DNA of 40,244 bases from Kofleriaceae bacterium. GTDB lineage: Bacteria > Myxococcota_A > Polyangia > Haliangiales > Haliangiaceae. Below, in pieces: positions 18,950-28,418 of this stretch (position 1 is the first letter of the stretch; the number at the start of each line of letters is the position of its first letter). A model generated the notes under the pieces. It was given only the letters and a program-made list of their open reading frames with translations. It made no database searches and had not been told where the DNA came from. Location of the stretch: NCBI GenBank assembly GCA_018058095.1, contig JAGPCO010000072.1:1-40244 (forward strand), given 5' to 3'. Position numbers and translations under genes: made by a program.

Positions 18950-19045
18950 TTTCGTTTCAGCCAGATAGAGGGACGTTCACCCGGGCACATGCCTTGCTCT
19001 AGCGTCCTGCCAGCAACAACCAATTTTCCAACGGGGCGAACCACC

Positions 19046-20941
19046 ATGAAGAAGCTGAATCGATGGGCCATGCTGACGGGTGCACTTGCTGGGCTGGCGA
19101 TCCCGAGCGTCGCTGGCGCGCAGGAGATTGGCCGCGCCATCTCGGTGAAGATCCACGCCCCGAGTGACAACGACCTCACCGACGTTCGTATCGGCGACGA
19201 CGGCATCGCCCGCCTGCGCAAGAACGACGAGGAGCACACCAACGAGCAGGCCTCGATCGCCTTCACGCCCGATGGCACCAAGGCCATGTACGTCGAGATG
19301 CGCACCTCGAACATCAACGGCAACTCGGCGCCGAACAACCAGATCCAGTGCGCGGTGACCCCGCTCGAGACCTTCCAGCAGGCTGACGGCTCGGTCTCGG
19401 TCCGCCGCCCGGCCGGCGCGGTCGACGTGTGGGCCAGCGACAACGATGGCAACGAGTATCGCAACTGCCACAAGCCGGCGATCCTCTCGATCAACGAGGG
19501 CAAGAACTTCCTCCTGTTCCTCAACTACCAGCCGAACAACGACACCATCCGCTACGCCAAGGTCCTCGACCTCAACGGCGCGCCGGTGACCATCCGCAAC
19601 GCCAACGGCCAGGTCCAGGACCAGGTCGCCATCATGGCGAAGAACAACGACGACTGCTCGATGCACCAGACCGGTGCCGACGCCAACGAGGTCTATTACA
19701 AGGCCAAGACCGGCAACAGCTACGTCACCCGCTTCGTGCAGTGGCACGGCTGCAACGGCAACGGCAACGACGACGGCTGGGCTGGCGGCACTGACGTCGC
19801 CTGCGATCTCGACGCGGTGACCGGCGCGGCCACCTCGTGCACCATCACCCGCCGGTTCGACCTGTCGCTGGCCCAGCAGGAGGAGCGCTCGCGTGGCCGC
19901 TGCTCCATCTCGGACGCCGACCCGAACACCGCCTTCTGCACCTGGACCGAGGGCAACACCCAGCCGCAGCGCGAGGGCGTGTGGGGCGCGGCCATCGACC
20001 TGTCCGAGGGCGCCGAGCTCGGCCAGAACGCCGACTCCCGCCTGCTGTGGAAGGAGCGGATCGCCTACCGCCAGGAGGTCCAGCTCGGTGACGAGACCCG
20101 CCGCGCCTACGCCATGCGCGCCATGCACGCCCGCGTCAAGGGCATCGCCGCCGATGGCAGCGTGACCAACAGCGACCAGGTCATGCTGCGCTACAACGGC
20201 AACGTCGGCAACAACACCAACAACGCCAAGGGTGGCCGCAACATCACCAACGACGTCACCGTCATCCGCCCGCTGCGCGACAGCCTGACCTACGTGATGC
20301 CGCCGACCGACATCACCGACATGATCCTCGGCACCGACGGCACCCACCTCTCCATGATGGAGACGGTGTTCGGCAAGGGTCAGAACCTGATGCCCGGCTT
20401 CGTCCTGATGTCCGGTAGCCACGTCGGTGGCGCCAACCGCTCGGCGACCCTGCGCACCATCGGCTTCGACACCGCCACCGGCACCCTCAAGAACCTGGGC
20501 GAGCACAGCGCCGGCGCCGGCTACGACCGCCACCTGTACTCGAACTACCTGGGTAACAACCCCGGTAACCAGGGCCGCAACTTCGCCGCCGGTACGCTCG
20601 TCCGCAACCCGTTCGAGGGCATGAACGGCAACAAGGTGAAGTACTTCGTGGCCATGGGCCTCACCGCCAAGGACCCGACCGACAACAACGCCGCGCTCAA
20701 GACCTCGTCCTACGTGTCCATCTTCCCGGTCGCGTTCTCCGAGGACGCCCCGACCCCGGGTGGTGGCTGGCAGGACGTCCCCGGTGACACCGGCGGCCAG
20801 ACCGGCGACGACGACAACGGTGGTGACAACACCGGTGGTGGCGGCGAGGCCGTGGGTGGTTGCTCGACCGGCGGCGCCCAGGGCGCTGGCCTGGCGGGTC
20901 TGCTGCTCGGCCTGGCGGCCTTCATCCGCCGCCGCAAGTAA
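19046..20941 (+). CDS. Exported surface protein with MYXO-CTERM sorting tail
   Basis: A 631-aa protein with a signal peptide (1-25, cleavage after 'VAGA') and a C-terminal MYXO-CTERM tail: 'GGCSTGG' (C606), a hydrophobic helix and RRRK at the end. Such tails are processed by myxosortases, leaving the protein anchored at the cell surface through the Cys region; known for the family, inferred here. The large middle domain is rich in Asn, Asp and Gly and has strand-rich repeats ('ASIAFTPDGTKAMYVEM', 'SYVTRFVQWHGCNGNGNDD', 'RSATLRTIGFDTATG') suggestive of a beta-propeller; I do not recognise a catalytic domain. Before the tail lies a Gly/Asp/Thr spacer. Codon and Asn content differ from its neighbours but G+C remains high. 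It precedes the three cytochrome lipoprotein genes and ends in a strong terminator. Confidence 0.85.
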   Translation: MKKLNRWAMLTGALAGLAIPSVAGAQEIGRAISVKIHAPSDNDLTDVRIGDDGIARLRKNDEEHTNEQASIAFTPDGTKAMYVEMRTSNINGNSAPNNQIQCAVTPLETFQQADGSVSVRRPAGAVDVWASDNDGNEYRNCHKPAILSINEGKNFLLFLNYQPNNDTIRYAKVLDLNGAPVTIRNANGQVQDQVAIMAKNNDDCSMHQTGADANEVYYKAKTGNSYVTRFVQWHGCNGNGNDDGWAGGTDVACDLDAVTGAATSCTITRRFDLSLAQQEERSRGRCSISDADPNTAFCTWTEGNTQPQREGVWGAAIDLSEGAELGQNADSRLLWKERIAYRQEVQLGDETRRAYAMRAMHARVKGIAADGSVTNSDQVMLRYNGNVGNNTNNAKGGRNITNDVTVIRPLRDSLTYVMPPTDITDMILGTDGTHLSMMETVFGKGQNLMPGFVLMSGSHVGGANRSATLRTIGFDTATGTLKNLGEHSAGAGYDRHLYSNYLGNNPGNQGRNFAAGTLVRNPFEGMNGNKVKYFVAMGLTAKDPTDNNAALKTSSYVSIFPVAFSEDAPTPGGGWQDVPGDTGGQTGDDDNGGDNTGGGGEAVGGCSTGGAQGAGLAGLLLGLAAFIRRRK

Positions 20942-20976: not shown

Positions 20977-21007
20977 GCCGCAGGGTGCCCGCAAGGCACC
21001 CTGCGGC
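20977..21007 (+). terminator. Strong intrinsic terminator after the MYXO-CTERM gene
   Basis: A perfect 13-bp stem (GCCGCAGGGTGCC and complement) with a 5-base loop, followed by GCCATTTT. It separates the surface-protein gene from the first cytochrome gene. Confidence 0.75.
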
Positions 21008-21068
21008 GCCATTTTCCAGACCCCTCGCCGATCGGCCTCTCGCCCGGTCGAAGTCCCAGGAGCTCGCC

Positions 21069-22010
21069 ATGACCCGCTCGATCCTGACCACCTTCCTCGC
21101 CCTCGGCGCCCTGTCCCTGACCGCCTGCATCGGCAGCATCGATGACACGCCGCCCGGCGGTGGTGGAGGTGGCGGTGGCGGCGGTGGTGGAGGCGGCGGT
21201 GGCGGCGGCGGTGGAACCGGCCTGGCCGCGGTGGCCAAGCAGGCCTTCGAGCAGGACGTCTATCCCATCCTGTCCAGCACGACGGCGGGCAAGGGCTGCG
21301 CCACCTCCGGCTGTCACGGCGTCAGCCCTGGCTCGACGCCGTTCGTCGGCGCGACGCTGGCGGTGGCCTACGATCAAGCCATCGGCTTCTCGTCGGTGGT
21401 GGGCAACTTCACCACCACCGGTGCACCCATCTACAGCAAGATGGTGCCCGGTCCGCACCAGGGCCGTACCTACGACGCCGCCGAGCAGGCGGCGGTGGCG
21501 GGCTGGCTCGACGCCGAGGTGGCGGCCCGTGCCGCCGGCGGCGGTGGCGGCGGCGGCGGCGGTGGTGGTGAGTCCCCGGCCCAGGTCTCGGATCGCCTGA
21601 TGCGCGAGTGGTCCGGCTGCATGAAGCAGACGGACTTCGACGCGGCCAACGTGGCCGCGGCCTGGGCCAACACCGGCAGCGACGAGGGCAACTGCGAGGT
21701 CTGCCACGAGGCTGGCTACGCCGCCTTCATCGCCACCGAGAACCGGACCCGCATGTTCAACGCGATCTCGACCGACCGCTTCTTCATGATGAGCTTCTTC
21801 ACGCCCGACATCACCGACCTGGCCAACGCGACTATGAAGATCAACGAGGCGGCGATCCTCCGGGTGGCCGACGCCCTGCCGCCTCACACCGAGCACCCGC
21901 GCTTCAACCCCAACGACAACGGCGGCCAGGACGCGCTCCTGCAGTTCTACACGGCGGCGATGGCCCACAAGACCGCCGGCACGTGTGACCCGCCGCGCCT
22001 GCTGAACTAG
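21069..22010 (+). CDS. Diheme cytochrome c lipoprotein, paralog 1
   Basis: A 313-aa lipoprotein (lipobox LTAC, C20) that should carry two covalent hemes: CATSGCH (residues 77-83, an unusual CX4CH) and CEVCH in the second half. The lipidated Cys is followed by 'IGSIDD' and a run of 20 glycines; a second run of about 11 glycines separates the two heme domains. Shared with paralogs 2 and 3 are the FE..V.PIL segment before heme 1, the 'DRLMREWSGCMK' helix, 'TDFDAAN', 'CHEAGYAAFIATENRTRMFNAI' in outline, and a final 'GTCD' cysteine that may pair with the Cys in GCMK. Good GGAG ribosome site. Likely on the periplasmic face of the inner or outer membrane and involved in electron transfer; partners not shown by sequence. 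Confidence 0.85.
   Translation: MTRSILTTFLALGALSLTACIGSIDDTPPGGGGGGGGGGGGGGGGGGGGTGLAAVAKQAFEQDVYPILSSTTAGKGCATSGCHGVSPGSTPFVGATLAVAYDQAIGFSSVVGNFTTTGAPIYSKMVPGPHQGRTYDAAEQAAVAGWLDAEVAARAAGGGGGGGGGGGESPAQVSDRLMREWSGCMKQTDFDAANVAAAWANTGSDEGNCEVCHEAGYAAFIATENRTRMFNAISTDRFFMMSFFTPDITDLANATMKINEAAILRVADALPPHTEHPRFNPNDNGGQDALLQFYTAAMAHKTAGTCDPPRLLN
21156..21215 (+). repeat. GGN codon repeat encoding 20 glycines
   Basis: Sixty bases of GGC/GGT/GGA codons inside the first cytochrome gene. A second, shorter GGN run (about 21538-21570) lies between its heme domains. Slippage in either would change linker length in steps of one glycine or shift the frame. Confidence 0.8.
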
Positions 22011-22034
22011 TTACCTCGCCACCCTCTGGTGTGT

Positions 22035-22065
22035 CCTCGGCCCCGCCTGCCCCGCGGGGCCGAGG
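22035..22065 (+). terminator. Terminator after cytochrome paralog 1
   Basis: A perfect 11-bp stem (CCTCGGCCCCG and complement), a 9-base loop, then CCGTTT. The T run is short, so efficiency is uncertain. Confidence 0.55.
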
Positions 22066-22189
22066 CCGTTTCGGCGGCCGCTGCGTGTGGGCCCGGGTAG
22101 GGGAGGGCCCCTCCCCAGTACCCACGGGTAGGGAGGCCCCAGCCGCCTGAGACCCGGAGCACCCAGATCCGGGATCTCCTGTCATGTGA

Positions 22190-22207
22190 TTGCAATATGT
22201 TACAGGC
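22190..22207. promoter_or_regulatory. TTGCAA-N3-GTTACAGGC motif upstream of cytochrome paralog 2
   Basis: This 18-base pattern lies 61 bases before the second cytochrome gene in a relatively AT-rich spot. The same pattern with the same spacing occurs at 28547-28564, upstream of the minus-strand heme-protein operon. A looser version (TTGCAG...GTTACGATGC) lies before paralog 3. It may be a shared regulator site or promoter. Confidence 0.35.
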
Positions 22208-22268
22208 GGTCACGAGGTGGCTCGACCCTTGCTCATCAGGTTGTCCAGACACCACGGGGAGCGCGAAA

Positions 22269-23162
22269 ATGAAGAACCGGATCAACCTTCTGGCGGCGAT
22301 GGCTTCGATGGCTCTGGCGGCGTGTGTTGGCAGCATCGACAACATGGAGCCGGATCCCGATCCGGACCCGGATCCGGACCCCAACCCGACCGTCCTCACC
22401 CCGGCCCAGAAGGCGCGTGAGGCGTTCGATCGCGGCGTGCACCCGGTGCTCGCCAGCAAGTGCCTCGGGTGCCACTCGTCGGCCGGCGGCGCGGTCTCGA
22501 CCGCGTTCGTCAGCCCGACCGTGGACACTGCCTACGTCACCGCGACCAGCTACGCCACCGTGGTCGGCAACTTCACCGAGACCGGCGCCCAGGTCTACGC
22601 CAAGGTCCAGGGCGGCCACTACGGGCCGTACACCCTCGACGAGAGCGCCGACCTCCTCAACTGGCTCGGCCTCGAGGTCCAGGCCCGCGCCGGCACCGGC
22701 GGCACCCCCGAGCCGACCCCCGAGGGGCCCGGTCAGGTCGCCGACCGCCTGCTCAAGGAGTGGTCGGCCTGCATGAAGCAGACGGACTTCGACGCCGCCA
22801 ACATGGCCGAGGCCTGGTCGAACACCGGCAGCGACGAGGGCAACTGCGAGGTGTGCCACGAGGCCGGCTACGCCGACTTCATCGCCACCGCCAACCGGAC
22901 CCGCATGTTCGGCGCCATCGCCACCGACCGCTACTTCATGCTCAGCTACTTCGTGCCCGACGTCCTGTCGGCCACCCCGCAGATCGTGATCAACCGGGCC
23001 GCGCTCGACCGCGTCGCCCTGGCCCAGGTCCCGCACACCGAGCACCCGCGGTTCGACATCAACAACAACGGCGCGCTGACCGCCCTCGAGCAGTTCTACA
23101 CCCAGACCATGGCCAACAAGGCCGGCGCCCTGTGTGACCCGGCGCCCAAGCTGACCAACTGA
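22269..23162 (+). CDS. Diheme cytochrome c lipoprotein, paralog 2
   Basis: A 297-aa lipoprotein (lipobox ALAAC, C19) with heme motifs CLGCH and CEVCH. After the shared 'VGSID' it has a Pro/Asp repeat spacer ('EPDPDPDPDPDPNP') where paralog 1 has glycines; the spacer between heme domains is 'GTGGTPEPTPEGPG'. The second domain is nearly identical to paralog 1 around 'CMKQTDFDAAN', 'NTGSDEGNCEVCHEAGYA' in outline and 'NRTRMF', showing recent duplication. The C-terminal Cys ('ALCDPAPKL') is conserved. GGGGAG ribosome site. It has its own upstream region with a palindrome, a G-rich block and the TTGCAA motif, and its own terminator. Confidence 0.85.
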   Translation: MKNRINLLAAMASMALAACVGSIDNMEPDPDPDPDPDPNPTVLTPAQKAREAFDRGVHPVLASKCLGCHSSAGGAVSTAFVSPTVDTAYVTATSYATVVGNFTETGAQVYAKVQGGHYGPYTLDESADLLNWLGLEVQARAGTGGTPEPTPEGPGQVADRLLKEWSACMKQTDFDAANMAEAWSNTGSDEGNCEVCHEAGYADFIATANRTRMFGAIATDRYFMLSYFVPDVLSATPQIVINRAALDRVALAQVPHTEHPRFDINNNGALTALEQFYTQTMANKAGALCDPAPKLTN

Positions 23163-23185
23163 GCAACCTCGTCCCCCGTGTCTCG

Positions 23186-23219
23186 CCAGGGCGGCCCATG
23201 TGGCCGCCCTGGTCGTTTT
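23186..23219 (+). terminator. Intrinsic terminator after cytochrome paralog 2
   Basis: A perfect 11-bp stem (CCAGGGCGGCC and complement) with a 5-base loop, followed by TCGTTTTC. Confidence 0.7.
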
Positions 23220-23428
23220 CGGTCCGGGTCGAGGCCTGGCGCCACGGGGGTTGCGGCGCCGATCACGCCGCTGCTGGGGACCGTCGACGTCGAGGCGCAG
23301 GGCCCCAGGGCAAGACCCCAGCGGGCCCCGCCGGAGATCGCTTGCGCCTTGCAGTTTCAAGCTGTTACGATGCCATCACCCTGGCGCATCACTTGCTTTG
23401 CTACAGGGACATGACCAAGGGGAGCCGC

Positions 23429-24325
23429 ATGACCCGTCCAGGCCTGCTGTCGATCATCACGCTCGGCTCACTTGGTGCCCTGCTGTCCGTCAGCGCCTGC
23501 GTCGGCAGCATCGACACCGGCGACGACGGTGGCGGCGGCGACGACGGCGGCGGCGGCAGCAGCGCCGCCCGGCTGGCGTTCGAGAACGAGGTGTTCCCGA
23601 TCCTGCAGTCCAAGTGCGCCGGCTGCCACAGCGGGGCCACCGCGGTCGCGACCCCCTTCGTCGGCGCCACCCTGGCCGCGGCGTACACCACGGCGACGGG
23701 CTTCGGCTCCGTCGTCGGCGACTACACCTCGACCGGCGCGCCCATCCTGACCAAGGTCACCGCGGTCGCGTCCGGCCACCAGGGCCAGACCTACCTGCCG
23801 GCCGAGTCGACCACCATCACCGAGTGGCTCGCCCTCGAGGTGTCCGAGCGCAACGTCAATCCCAACCCGAACCCCAACCCGACCGAGACCCCGGGTCAGG
23901 TCAGCGACCGCCTGATGCGCGAATGGTCGGGCTGCATGAAGCTGACCGACTTCGAGGCCGCCAACATGGCGCCGCTGTGGTCGGCCCTGCCCAGCTCGTC
24001 AGGCCCGTGCGTGCGCTGCCACGAGACCGGCCAGGCCTCGTTCCTGGTCTCGGCCGATCCGACGCTGATGTTTGGCGCCATCTCGACCAACCGCTACTTC
24101 ATGCAGACCTTCTTCCAGGCCGACATCACCAACCTGGCCGCGGCCCAGATGATCGTCAACGCCAACACCATCGACCGCGTCGCCCGCGCCGTGGCCCCGC
24201 ACACCGCCCACCCGCAGTTCGACGCCAACGCCAACGGCGCGTGGGACGCGCTGCAGGAGTTCTACACCGCGGCCATGGCCCACAAGACCGCCGGCACCTG
24301 CGACGCGCCGCGCCTCGTGCCGTGA
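23429..24325 (+). CDS. Diheme cytochrome c lipoprotein, paralog 3
   Basis: A 298-aa lipoprotein (lipobox SVSAC, C24) with heme motifs CAGCH and CVRCH. Its first spacer is Asp/Gly ('DDGGGGDDGGGG') and the second is Asn/Pro ('NPNPNPNPTETPG'). It is the most diverged of the three: the second domain keeps 'DRLMREWSGCMK', 'TDFEAANM', 'CHETGQASF', 'LMFGAISTNRYFM' and the final 'GTCDAPRL', but the GSDEGNCE block is replaced by 'ALPSSSGPCVRCH'. The start is placed at the ATG with AAGGGGAG 6-13 bases upstream; an ATG six codons earlier is possible. The preceding region has candidate -35 TTGCGC and -10 TACGAT (23371 area approximate). A hairpin follows the stop, facing the ferrochelatase gene. Confidence 0.85.
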   Translation: MTRPGLLSIITLGSLGALLSVSACVGSIDTGDDGGGGDDGGGGSSAARLAFENEVFPILQSKCAGCHSGATAVATPFVGATLAAAYTTATGFGSVVGDYTSTGAPILTKVTAVASGHQGQTYLPAESTTITEWLALEVSERNVNPNPNPNPTETPGQVSDRLMREWSGCMKLTDFEAANMAPLWSALPSSSGPCVRCHETGQASFLVSADPTLMFGAISTNRYFMQTFFQADITNLAAAQMIVNANTIDRVARAVAPHTAHPQFDANANGAWDALQEFYTAAMAHKTAGTCDAPRLVP

Positions 24326-25667: not shown

Positions 25668-26132
25668 CTACTGCGTCGTCGACGCCGAGTAGTCGAGCCA
25701 CACCCCGAACAGCGGCGCCGAGACGTGGCAGCGGTCCCAGCAGAAGTCGTGCTGGACCTCGGCACCGCCGGGCGTCTCGGCCCGGGTGAACAGCCACAGG
25801 CCCTGGGTCGGATCGCCGTCGGTGCCGGCCTGCTTGCGCATGATCGCCAGGTACCGCAGCGGCCCCGGCGTGTTGTTCACGTTGTCGCGCACCTCCTTGA
25901 CCACCACCGCGGTCATGCCGGCATCGGCCAGCGGGCCGTAGTCGCCGGGGGGGCTGATGGCGGCGACGTCGTTGGCGTAGATGACGCGGTAGGTGTCGCC
26001 GTGGCCCGGCGCCGGCCCGTAGGTCTCGAGCCGGACCGGCCAGCTCGTGTAGTCGCCGGTCGGCTCGGGGGCGACCGCGGTGCCGCAGGCCGCCGCCAGC
26101 AGCGCGGCGGGGCCGACGAGGCGCCGGCTCAT
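25668..26132 (-). CDS. Cytochrome P460-like heme lipoprotein with CX3CH
   Basis: A 154-aa exported protein with a lipobox-like signal ('LLAAAC', C16). The fold pattern matches the cytochrome P460 family: 'WPVRLETYGPAPGHGDTYRVIYAND', in outline, 'AVVVKEVRDN' with a conserved Lys, 'YLAIMRKQAG', 'GLWLFTRA' and a C-terminal heme motif. The motif is CWDRCH (residues 131-136), one residue longer than the usual CXXCH. Family members bind c-type heme, some with a lysine cross-link, and oxidise hydroxylamine or handle nitric oxide; many members are functionally unknown. Its ATG overlaps the stop of the upstream cytochrome gene (ATGA). Last gene of the four-gene heme operon. Confidence 0.75.
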   Translation of the reverse strand: MSRRLVGPAALLAAACGTAVAPEPTGDYTSWPVRLETYGPAPGHGDTYRVIYANDVAAISPPGDYGPLADAGMTAVVVKEVRDNVNNTPGPLRYLAIMRKQAGTDGDPTQGLWLFTRAETPGGAEVQHDFCWDRCHVSAPLFGVWLDYSASTTQ

Positions 26133-26794
26133 CGCGCGCCTCCCACCATGAGCTCGCCGGCGTCGATGTTGCCGAACCCGCCGCCGTCGTCGAGCCGGGC
26201 CTGCAGCACGTACCGGCCGGGCGGTAGCGCCGACAGATCGAGGGTGAGCTGGGCTCGCCCGCTCGGCAGGAGGGCCACCACCGTGTCGGCGCCGCCAGCG
26301 GCTGGCCGGGCCAGCAGCTGGCCGACCACGAAGTCACCGTCCTCATCGGCGGTCTCGACCTCGAGCACGACGGTCGCCCCGTCGCGGCTGAGCTCGCGCA
26401 CGGTCAGCGTCGGGGTGTGGTTGCCGACCCGGGTCGGGCCACGCGCCGCCCCGGCGGCGGCCCAGTTGGCCAGCGTCTGCACCGCGACCTCGTCGGGCGG
26501 AAACCGTCCGTCCTTGGGCATGTACCCGGTCCGGATGCTGTCGACCAGCGCCATGGCGTTGCTGGCCGCGCCGTAGAACGTGGCGTCGCCGGGGCCGGTC
26601 ACGTCGTCGTAGCTGACCCACTGCAGGAGGTCGGGCGCGATGTGGGCCGGCTGGGCGTGGCAGCGGCTGCAGTGCGCCACCAGGATCGGCAGCACGTCCT
26701 CCTGCCAGCTCGGGTCGGTCGGTGCCTCGGCGGTGCAGCCGGGCGCGCCCAGCCACACGCTGGTGGCGAGGACGCAGGGGGCGAGGGTCCGCAT
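26129..26794 (-). CDS. Monoheme cytochrome c lipoprotein with C-terminal beta domain
   Basis: A 221-aa lipoprotein (lipobox GAPGC, C20). The first domain (about 28-125) is a c-type cytochrome: 'WQEDVLPILVAHCSRCHAQPAH' in outline gives heme ligands C42, C45 and H46, with 'YMPKDGRFPPDEVAVQTLANWAAAG' carrying a methionine able to be the sixth ligand (MPK). The second domain (about 135-221) looks like an immunoglobulin-like strand sandwich ('TPTLTVRELSRDGATVVLEV', 'LLPSGRAQLTLDLSALPPGRYVL' in outline). The stop overlaps the P460-like gene start; eight bases separate it from the barrel gene upstream. Translational coupling and related function are likely. Confidence 0.8.
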   Translation of the reverse strand: MRTLAPCVLATSVWLGAPGCTAEAPTDPSWQEDVLPILVAHCSRCHAQPAHIAPDLLQWVSYDDVTGPGDATFYGAASNAMALVDSIRTGYMPKDGRFPPDEVAVQTLANWAAAGAARGPTRVGNHTPTLTVRELSRDGATVVLEVETADEDGDFVVGQLLARPAAGGADTVVALLPSGRAQLTLDLSALPPGRYVLQARLDDGGGFGNIDAGELMVGGAR

Positions 26795-26802
26795 GAGTGA
26801 CC

Positions 26803-27966
26803 TCACAGGAAGTAGTGGAGCTGGAGCATGGCCAGCGCGCTGGGGTCGTCGTAGTTGCCGCCGGTCGTCGCCAGCCGCCCGAGCAGGTGCAGCTCGACGT
26901 GGGCGTACGGGAAGTACTGCACGCTGACGTCGGCCGCGGTCCGGCTCGACGCGCGCAGGCCGACGTCGGGGTCCCACAGGTGCAGGCCGGCGCTGGTCCA
27001 CCAGCGCGCCGCCACCGGCTTGCTGGCGCCGAGGTAGCTGGCCAGCTGCCACCGACCGGGCCCGGCGTCGTCGGCGAAGGTCTGCCGCTGCAGGTCGAGC
27101 TCGCCGAGCAGGAGCACGCCGGCCTCGGGCAGCCAGCGCTTGCCGACCGCGCCGAGGGTGTACGTGCTGGTGGTCGGCGCGACCGCCACGCGAAGCTGCG
27201 CGCCGAGCGCGGCGCTGTCGTCCAGGATGCGGCGCTCGGCGTACGCGGTCACGCCCATGGCCTTCGGCCCGGCCGCGGTGCGCGGCACGAAGCTCGGCAC
27301 GAACGCGCTCACGTGCGCCTCCCAGGTCGGCCCGAACTTGCTGACCGACAGCGCGTACGGCTCCTCGAGCAGGTACGAGCCGAGGTAGCGCCGCACGTAG
27401 CTGGTGTGGTCCTGCAGGCGCAGGCCGAAGGTCGGGTAGAACCGGCCGAGCCGGGCCACCAGCGAGCCGTCGCCGCCGTCCCACTGCAGGTAGTGCTCGC
27501 GCGAGCCGAGCCGGGCCAGCGGCGACGGCCGGTCGCGGCCGTCGGGCGCGCGCGCGCTGCCGCGCAGGCCGGCGGTGAGGTTGAGCGAGAACGCGCCGAC
27601 GCCGACGCGGGCGTACAGGTCGGCCTGCATCGGGAAGCCGGCCAGCTCGCGCTGGTCGTTGCTGGTGCCGGGCAGGTCGGTGAAGGCGACCAGGCCGGCG
27701 CCGCGGTAGTCGCCACCGAGAGCCAGCCAGCTCGGCGGCTGCCACGCCCCGTGCAGGAACCCGCCGTCGCCGCGACCACCGGCGATGGTGTCGCCGGCCT
27801 CGGACCGGCCGTAGTCGTTGATGAGGCCACCGCCGCTCGGCGCGTAGTGGCAGGCCACGCAGCGGTCGGTCCCGGTCGACAGCTGGAACATCGGGTAGGC
27901 GGTGGCGGCGCGGGTGGCGCCGAGCACCCCCAGCGCACACGCCAGGGCGAGCACGGTCACTCGCAT
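26803..27966 (-). CDS. Outer-membrane beta-barrel with N-terminal CXXCH heme motif
   Basis: A 387-aa exported protein. Signal peptide 1-23 (after 'RAATA'). Immediately after, 'FQLSTGTDRCVACHYAPSGGG' in outline holds one c-type heme motif (C36, C39, H40) and 'LINDYGR'. The rest consists of alternating hydrophobic/polar strands with aromatic girdles ('FSLNLTAGLRG', 'SLVARLGRFYPTFGLRLQDH', 'VSVQYFPYAHVELHLLGRL') and ends 'LQLHYFL', like outer-membrane barrels recognised by the BAM system. No further cysteine pairs appear. A heme at the mouth or periplasmic plug of a barrel suggests an electron conduit across the outer membrane, but a single heme could not span it alone. The start overlaps the upstream cytochrome gene by 10 bases. 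Confidence 0.75.
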   Translation of the reverse strand: MRVTVLALACALGVLGATRAATAYPMFQLSTGTDRCVACHYAPSGGGLINDYGRSEAGDTIAGGRGDGGFLHGAWQPPSWLALGGDYRGAGLVAFTDLPGTSNDQRELAGFPMQADLYARVGVGAFSLNLTAGLRGSARAPDGRDRPSPLARLGSREHYLQWDGGDGSLVARLGRFYPTFGLRLQDHTSYVRRYLGSYLLEEPYALSVSKFGPTWEAHVSAFVPSFVPRTAAGPKAMGVTAYAERRILDDSAALGAQLRVAVAPTTSTYTLGAVGKRWLPEAGVLLLGELDLQRQTFADDAGPGRWQLASYLGASKPVAARWWTSAGLHLWDPDVGLRASSRTAADVSVQYFPYAHVELHLLGRLATTGGNYDDPSALAMLQLHYFL

Positions 27967-28418
27967 GGCGCACCCTCGAGGATCCAGCGCTCGATCAACG
28001 CGATCTCCTCCGCCGGCAGCGGCCCCGACGGCGGCATCACGTCGACCGCCTGCCCGCGCAGGCGGTGCATCAGGGTCGATCGTTCGGGCTGGCCCGGCAG
28101 CACCAGGTTGCCGCGCGGCTCACCCGGGAGGTCGGGCGCGCCGCACACGCGCCCGGTCAGGAACGTCCACGTGCCGTCGCGGCCGGAGAAGTCGAGGCCG
28201 GCCAGCGCGAGCGGATTGCCGTGGCAGCCGGCGGTGGCGCAGCTCGGCACGATGATCGCGGCGTGGATGTAGTCCCAGTCGGACGGGCGATCGTCGGCGC
28301 CGGCGCAGCCCGCGACGGCCAGCGCGGCGGCGATCACCAGCGTGGGTCGACGCCGGCGTCGACGTCGCGCGCGGGCAGGACGGCAGAAGCGAGCGCGACC
28401 GGGTGCGTACTGGATCAT
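27957..28418 (-). CDS. Cytochrome c lipoprotein with CX4CH motif
   Basis: A 153-aa protein. A very basic N-terminus (seven consecutive arginines near residue 18-24) precedes a hydrophobic stretch and lipobox AVAGC (C38). The domain resembles planctomycete-type cytochrome c: 'IIVPSCATAGCHGNPLALAGLDF' in outline with CX4CH (C60, C65, H66), 'GNLVLPGQPERSTLMHRLRG', 'MPPSGPLPAEEIALIERWILEGAPC'. The methionine of MPP is a probable axial ligand. First gene of the four-gene heme operon, overlapping the barrel gene by 10 bases. AAGG lies 8 bases before the ATG. A start at a later GTG would give a shorter, more normal signal, so the N-terminus is uncertain. Confidence 0.75.
   Translation of the reverse strand: MIQYAPGRARFCRPARARRRRRRRPTLVIAAALAVAGCAGADDRPSDWDYIHAAIIVPSCATAGCHGNPLALAGLDFSGRDGTWTFLTGRVCGAPDLPGEPRGNLVLPGQPERSTLMHRLRGQAVDVMPPSGPLPAEEIALIERWILEGAPCE

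Follow-up and report, generated by a model that had tools for sequence, protein, structure and literature searches.

Known outward electron conduits, such as MtrCAB and the Geobacter types, use multiheme proteins. The characterized proteins nearest in architecture to the locus analyzed here are the fused cytochrome-porins Cyc2 and Cyt572, which are Fe(II) oxidases (PMC7029218, PMC8406198). In Cyc2, a cytochrome with one heme is fused to a porin of 16 strands that is similar to OprO/OprP (PMC8406198), and significant similarity among Cyc2 homologs lies mainly in the N-terminal part (PMC5566968). Deltaproteobacterial Cyc2 sequences have been reported (PMC12442345), which may or may not include the family described below. 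A heme carried by the barrel itself, which the first-pass annotation of this DNA took to be unprecedented, is thus an established design (PMC8406198, PMC5566968, PMC7029218); the novelty lies in a branch of such cytochrome-porins that is widely distributed, has no name as yet and is accompanied by an uncommon combination of heme lipoproteins. A search of the literature for porin-cytochromes of the Kofleriaceae found none.

The locus is part of a 40,244-nucleotide stretch of a Kofleriaceae genome (assembly GCA_018058095.1, contig JAGPCO010000072.1), referred to here as the window; coordinates are those of the window unless another locus is named.

Gene organization and heme motifs

Four minus-strand ORFs, A to D, fill positions 25668-28418. 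The overlaps are 10 nt between A and B and 4 nt between C and D, and 8 nt separate B from C; given these overlaps and the short gap, the four genes almost certainly constitute one transcript with coupled translation. Each of the four proteins has one heme motif. The first-pass annotation had described four overlapping or closely spaced heme genes, with CX4CH in A, CVACH in B and CXXCH in C, and both the tightly coupled ORFs and these three motifs are confirmed. The spacing in D requires correction: its motif, CWDRCH, is CX3CH, not CXXCH.

A 16-strand barrel with an N-terminal heme motif

Gene B (26803..27966, minus strand) is predicted to encode an outer-membrane porin with a fused N-terminal monoheme cytochrome domain. 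The AlphaFold2 model, built from an alignment of 39 relatives, has 16 strands (mean pLDDT 83, pTM 0.81), and its barrel region spans residues 81-386 (26809..27726, minus strand), in agreement with the earlier designation of B as a barrel. The closest porin structures are OprO/OprP (Z 24.8-24.6, rmsd 3.1 over ~290 residues; Foldseek, VIA-align), with other classical 16-strand porins tied or near behind (Z 22-24). No Pfam or NCBIfam family matched B, a PDB sequence search with B or its profile gave nothing useful, and plasmid sequences searched with the barrel yielded no match.

The predicted signal peptide (residues 1-23; 27898..27966, minus strand) would be cleaved at 23/24, upstream of the CVACH motif (residues 36-40; 27847..27861, minus strand), which would therefore not be lost with it. 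The AxA/YP boundary, at which the cleavage site was judged by eye, and the CXXCH are kept in 19 of 19 close homologs; the CXXCH is invariant in 39 barrel homologs and appears by chance in 0.05% of shuffled B sequences. The heme domain is modeled poorly, with pLDDT <50 at residues 32-34 and 41-52, and because the model is poor over the N-terminal 60 residues, the heme position used below is one that we infer. Five arginines (R88, R172, R183, R192, R193) are invariant in the close B family, and His187, His356 and His384 are invariant in the wide family; these histidines could act as a distal heme ligand or line the pore.

Relationship to Cyc2

B has two defining features of Cyc2, the retained N-terminal CXXCH and the 16-strand OprO/OprP-like porin. 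The diagnostic Cyc2 motifs are altered. Upstream of the CXXCH, in place of AXPXFAR[Q/K][T/Y], B reads AYPMFQLST, keeping A, P, F and T but not AR[QK]; the PXL expected 4 residues past the CXXCH is replaced by APSGGGL, in which P and L are split by SGGG. Our Cyc2-like comparison set comprised five plasmid proteins, fetched with a short consensus peptide modeled on the published motif; each has the Cyc2 motif or one closely similar to it, and we call them Cyc2-like, not proven Cyc2. Common to B and these proteins is the pattern A-x-P-x-F...T-G...CXXCH...L-x-x-Y-G-R.

Profile comparison of the N-termini of B and the Cyc2-like set gave a probability of 95.9% (E 6e-9); among the controls A reached 1.0% and C 84.6-90%, the latter indicating that the signal is partly generic to CXXCH domains. 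When an HMM of the Cyc2-like N-terminus was run against 6059 six-frame ORFs (164 with CXXCH), barrels took the first 34 places, in front of all other CXXCH ORFs, and B of the window ranked 7th (E 0.0043, 15.3 bits). Two bridging proteins (G034:C39 and, from the window's genome, G000:C62) have N-termini that match both families. Whole-length profile comparisons of the barrels with the Cyc2-like set produced inconsistent alignments, and we thus claim homology for the N-terminus only. Since the diagnostic motifs are altered, we class B in a Cyc2-like sister family rather than as Cyc2; the family is probably a new branch of Cyc2-type heme-bearing pores.

Lipoprotein cytochromes A and C

Gene A (27957..28418, minus strand) encodes a lipoprotein c-type cytochrome with a CX4CH motif (CATAGCH, residues 60-66; 28221..28241, minus strand) and a PSCyt1-like C-terminus (Pfam PSCyt1, E 2.5e-5) with a distal MPP. 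The lipobox Cys38, the CX4CH and the MPP are invariant in all 25 aligned members. Gene C (26129..26794, minus strand) encodes a lipoprotein monoheme cytochrome (CSRCH, residues 42-46; 26657..26671, minus strand), in which the lipobox Cys20 and the CXXCH are invariant across 11 aligned members. Its match to Pfam CBB3 is sub-threshold only, and its C-terminal extension may be a beta domain.

A lipoprotein of the P460/c’-beta fold

Gene D (25668..26132, minus strand) encodes a lipoprotein whose model, of moderate quality (pLDDT 71), resembles cytochrome c’-beta and P460 structures, with Z scores of 10.4-8.0 to all such entries listed and 3.9 to the next unrelated one. D of the window alone has no Pfam match, and nine of the 13 members of its family match Pfam Cytochrome_P460 (best 5.1e-10), so that fold and family both agree with its earlier description as P460-like. 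Lys79 (25896..25898, minus strand), invariant in 13/13 aligned members, aligns with position 61 of Methylococcus capsulatus c’-beta, a column marked by the F61V mutant and equated with P460 Lys70/Lys78/Lys106 (PMC11928373). By alignment it is the counterpart of the P460 heme-crosslinking lysine. The equivalents of Arg50, Asn55, Ala58 and Met104, which mark the M. capsulatus P460 subgroup, are conserved in D.

The CX3CH of D (CWDRCH, residues 131-136; 25725..25742, minus strand) is likewise present in all 13 aligned members, in place of the CXXCH that is canonical for P460. Genome surveys have counted CX3CH as a possible heme site (PMC5566968), and we regard it as a putative, non-canonical attachment site. 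At the position of the catalytic Glu/Asp of P460, D of the window has Ala96; nine homologs have Ala and three have Glu (n = 13). The Glu-bearing homologs (L043, L044, L046) would be more promising subjects for hydroxylamine assays than D of the window.

Distribution and conservation of the gene cluster

The barrel family is present in 39 of 56 relatives. Four copies occur in the genome of the window, two of them within full A-B-C-D cassettes. A scan of the genome collection recovered 28 close barrel loci, which nearly all come from Myxococcota MAGs, together with 12 distant loci, the majority of them in Bdellovibrionota. A lies upstream of B at 25 of the 28 close loci and a C-like gene follows B at 20, while D follows at 11 and is absent beside the barrel at 17. 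A search for the gene order elsewhere, proposed with the first-pass annotation, thus shows A-B-C to be conserved and D to belong to one clade, in a single region of the barrel tree. By our own tally, 22 of the 25 strong D matches in relatives are on barrel contigs.

Other arrangements were seen around related barrels. In the genome of the window, contig C62 (L023, 955-8508) encodes a paralogous heme-barrel (AVPRFAARNG...CIQCH); its neighbors are a PSCyt1/PccH-like protein with five hemes on one side and a CBB3-type diheme cytochrome on the other. Distant Bdellovibrionota barrels adjoin a 2-3-heme lipoprotein, and at four loci (L069, L072, L073, L078) the barrel relative comes after a YceI-domain or similar small secreted protein; the Bdellovibrionota arrangement is a possible second cassette type. 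DUF1552 and PSD/PSCyt3 (DUF1592-type) genes recur near the cassette on the opposite strand (L042, 9513-12811, and six more loci).

The first-pass annotation had also joined a ferrochelatase and the facing cytochrome genes (here F, G and H) to the set, and conservation speaks against both as parts of it. The ferrochelatase adjoins the barrel at only one of the 28 close loci (L064), and F/G/H were matched at none of the loci searched. L064 (5916-9095) has the order J-A-B-hemH, as in the window, but without C and D, which look to have been gained or lost as a block there. F, G and H (20985-24325, plus strand) are three tandem diheme lipoprotein paralogs whose matched regions are 50-56% identical, and the genome of the window has no further copy of them; the gene preceding them (19043-20941) encodes a protein that weakly matches MYXO-CTERM. 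The six further hemes attributed to them are correct in number; they comprise five CXXCH motifs and one CX4CH, in the first paralog.

Proposed function and alternatives

We consider it moderately probable that A-D encode a conduit that moves electrons across the outer membrane and belongs to the fused cytochrome-porins. The heme of B would lie at, or within, the pore's periplasmic mouth and would exchange electrons with a small donor or acceptor arriving through the pore; by analogy with Cyc2, this could be Fe(II) or a different small redox compound. The membrane-anchored monoheme proteins A and C would replace the periplasmic Cyc1-like cytochromes that serve Cyc2, and D would be an optional P460-family protein binding NO or another small ligand, which may protect or regulate the system. 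A donor outside the cell would be oxidized and electrons would move inward; this direction, again argued from Cyc2, appears the most likely one. The genome of the window encodes members of the cytochrome c assembly family. A search of the same genome for RuBisCO found none, making RuBisCO-based growth on iron unlikely.

The direction of flow could be the reverse, with respiratory electrons delivered to metal oxides, humics or other acceptors outside the cell. Reducing conduits are also built from outer-membrane lipoprotein cytochromes and a barrel, and sequence sets no direction. We nevertheless judge outward transfer unlikely, as there is a single heme motif per protein, unlike in the multiheme outward conduits, and the nearest architectural counterparts, Cyc2 and Cyt572, oxidize Fe(II) (PMC7029218, PMC8406198). 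It is rather unlikely that B is instead a selective porin for import of anions or nutrients, with a heme that gates or senses and no electron flow through the membrane. Its resemblance to the substrate-specific OprO/OprP fits such a role, as do the Arg residues invariant in the close family and the His residues invariant in the wide one, which could line the pore; however, cytochrome lipoproteins adjoin the barrel throughout the family, which favors electron transfer over a plain porin.

The first-pass annotation proposed an envelope-spanning electron or nitrogen-oxide pathway. An electron-transfer cassette based on a heme-bearing barrel agrees with our results; the nitrogen-oxide part is weak. 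Under it, D would oxidize hydroxylamine or handle NO, and A, B and C would accept the electrons across the outer membrane. The P460 fold of D with its invariant, predicted crosslink lysine, the conserved residues of the M. capsulatus subgroup, and the sharing of a contig with the barrel in most places where the D subfamily occurs among relatives are all consistent with this. Against it, Ala96 replaces the catalytic carboxylate, as in a P460 unable to oxidize hydroxylamine, the CX3CH is non-canonical, and D, which clusters in one part of the tree, is missing beside the barrel at 17 close loci, indicating that the conduit exists without D. With D optional and the catalytic carboxylate missing, we find a nitrogen-oxide pathway distinctly improbable. 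A composite proposal, in which a widespread Cyc2 sister family of Myxococcota and Bdellovibrionota moves electrons through the outer membrane by single-heme parts only and is joined in one clade to a CX3CH P460-type protein, possibly coupling the path to NO or hydroxylamine chemistry there, also seems unlikely when taken as a whole. We prefer to read the cluster as a fused cytochrome-porin with its electron partners.

Significance

The B family is conserved across much of its class, reaches the Bdellovibrionota, and is unnamed in Pfam and NCBIfam. Should B conduct electrons, fused cytochrome-porins would reach far past the known iron oxidizers, into predatory and soil lineages for which the literature that we searched describes no outer-membrane electron transfer. 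The single-heme partners encoded next to B make the cluster a practical system for studying how a lone porin heme passes on its electrons, and the invariant CX3CH in the P460-fold protein D lends itself to a test of non-canonical heme attachment.

Comparison with known systems

Two of the lipoproteins have counterparts in described families. A resembles the planctomycete-type PSCyt1 (PF07635) in its C-terminal half, including the distal MPP, and differs from it in that the match is limited to this part of the protein and the heme motif is CX4CH. D carries the crosslink lysine of P460 and has the fold common to cytochrome P460 and c’-beta (PMC11928373, PMC6427953), but has CX3CH for CXXCH and Ala at the catalytic carboxylate, and is a lipoprotein encoded in a barrel operon.

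The cluster is set apart from MtrAB, MtoAB and PioAB, in which a separate decaheme protein is paired with a barrel of ~24-32 strands (PMC5566968): the barrel of B is built of 16 strands and carries a single fused heme motif, and its partners have one motif each. The likeness is to Cyc2 and Cyt572. B, like them, has a signal peptide, a single N-terminal CXXCH and a 16-strand OprO/OprP-like barrel, and Cyc2-like genes, as B, are followed by genes for c-type cytochromes. The partners of B differ in being lipoproteins with CX4CH, CXXCH and CX3CH motifs, and B itself comes from lineages other than those of the Cyc2 and Cyt572 iron oxidizers and is known here by its sequence and structural model.
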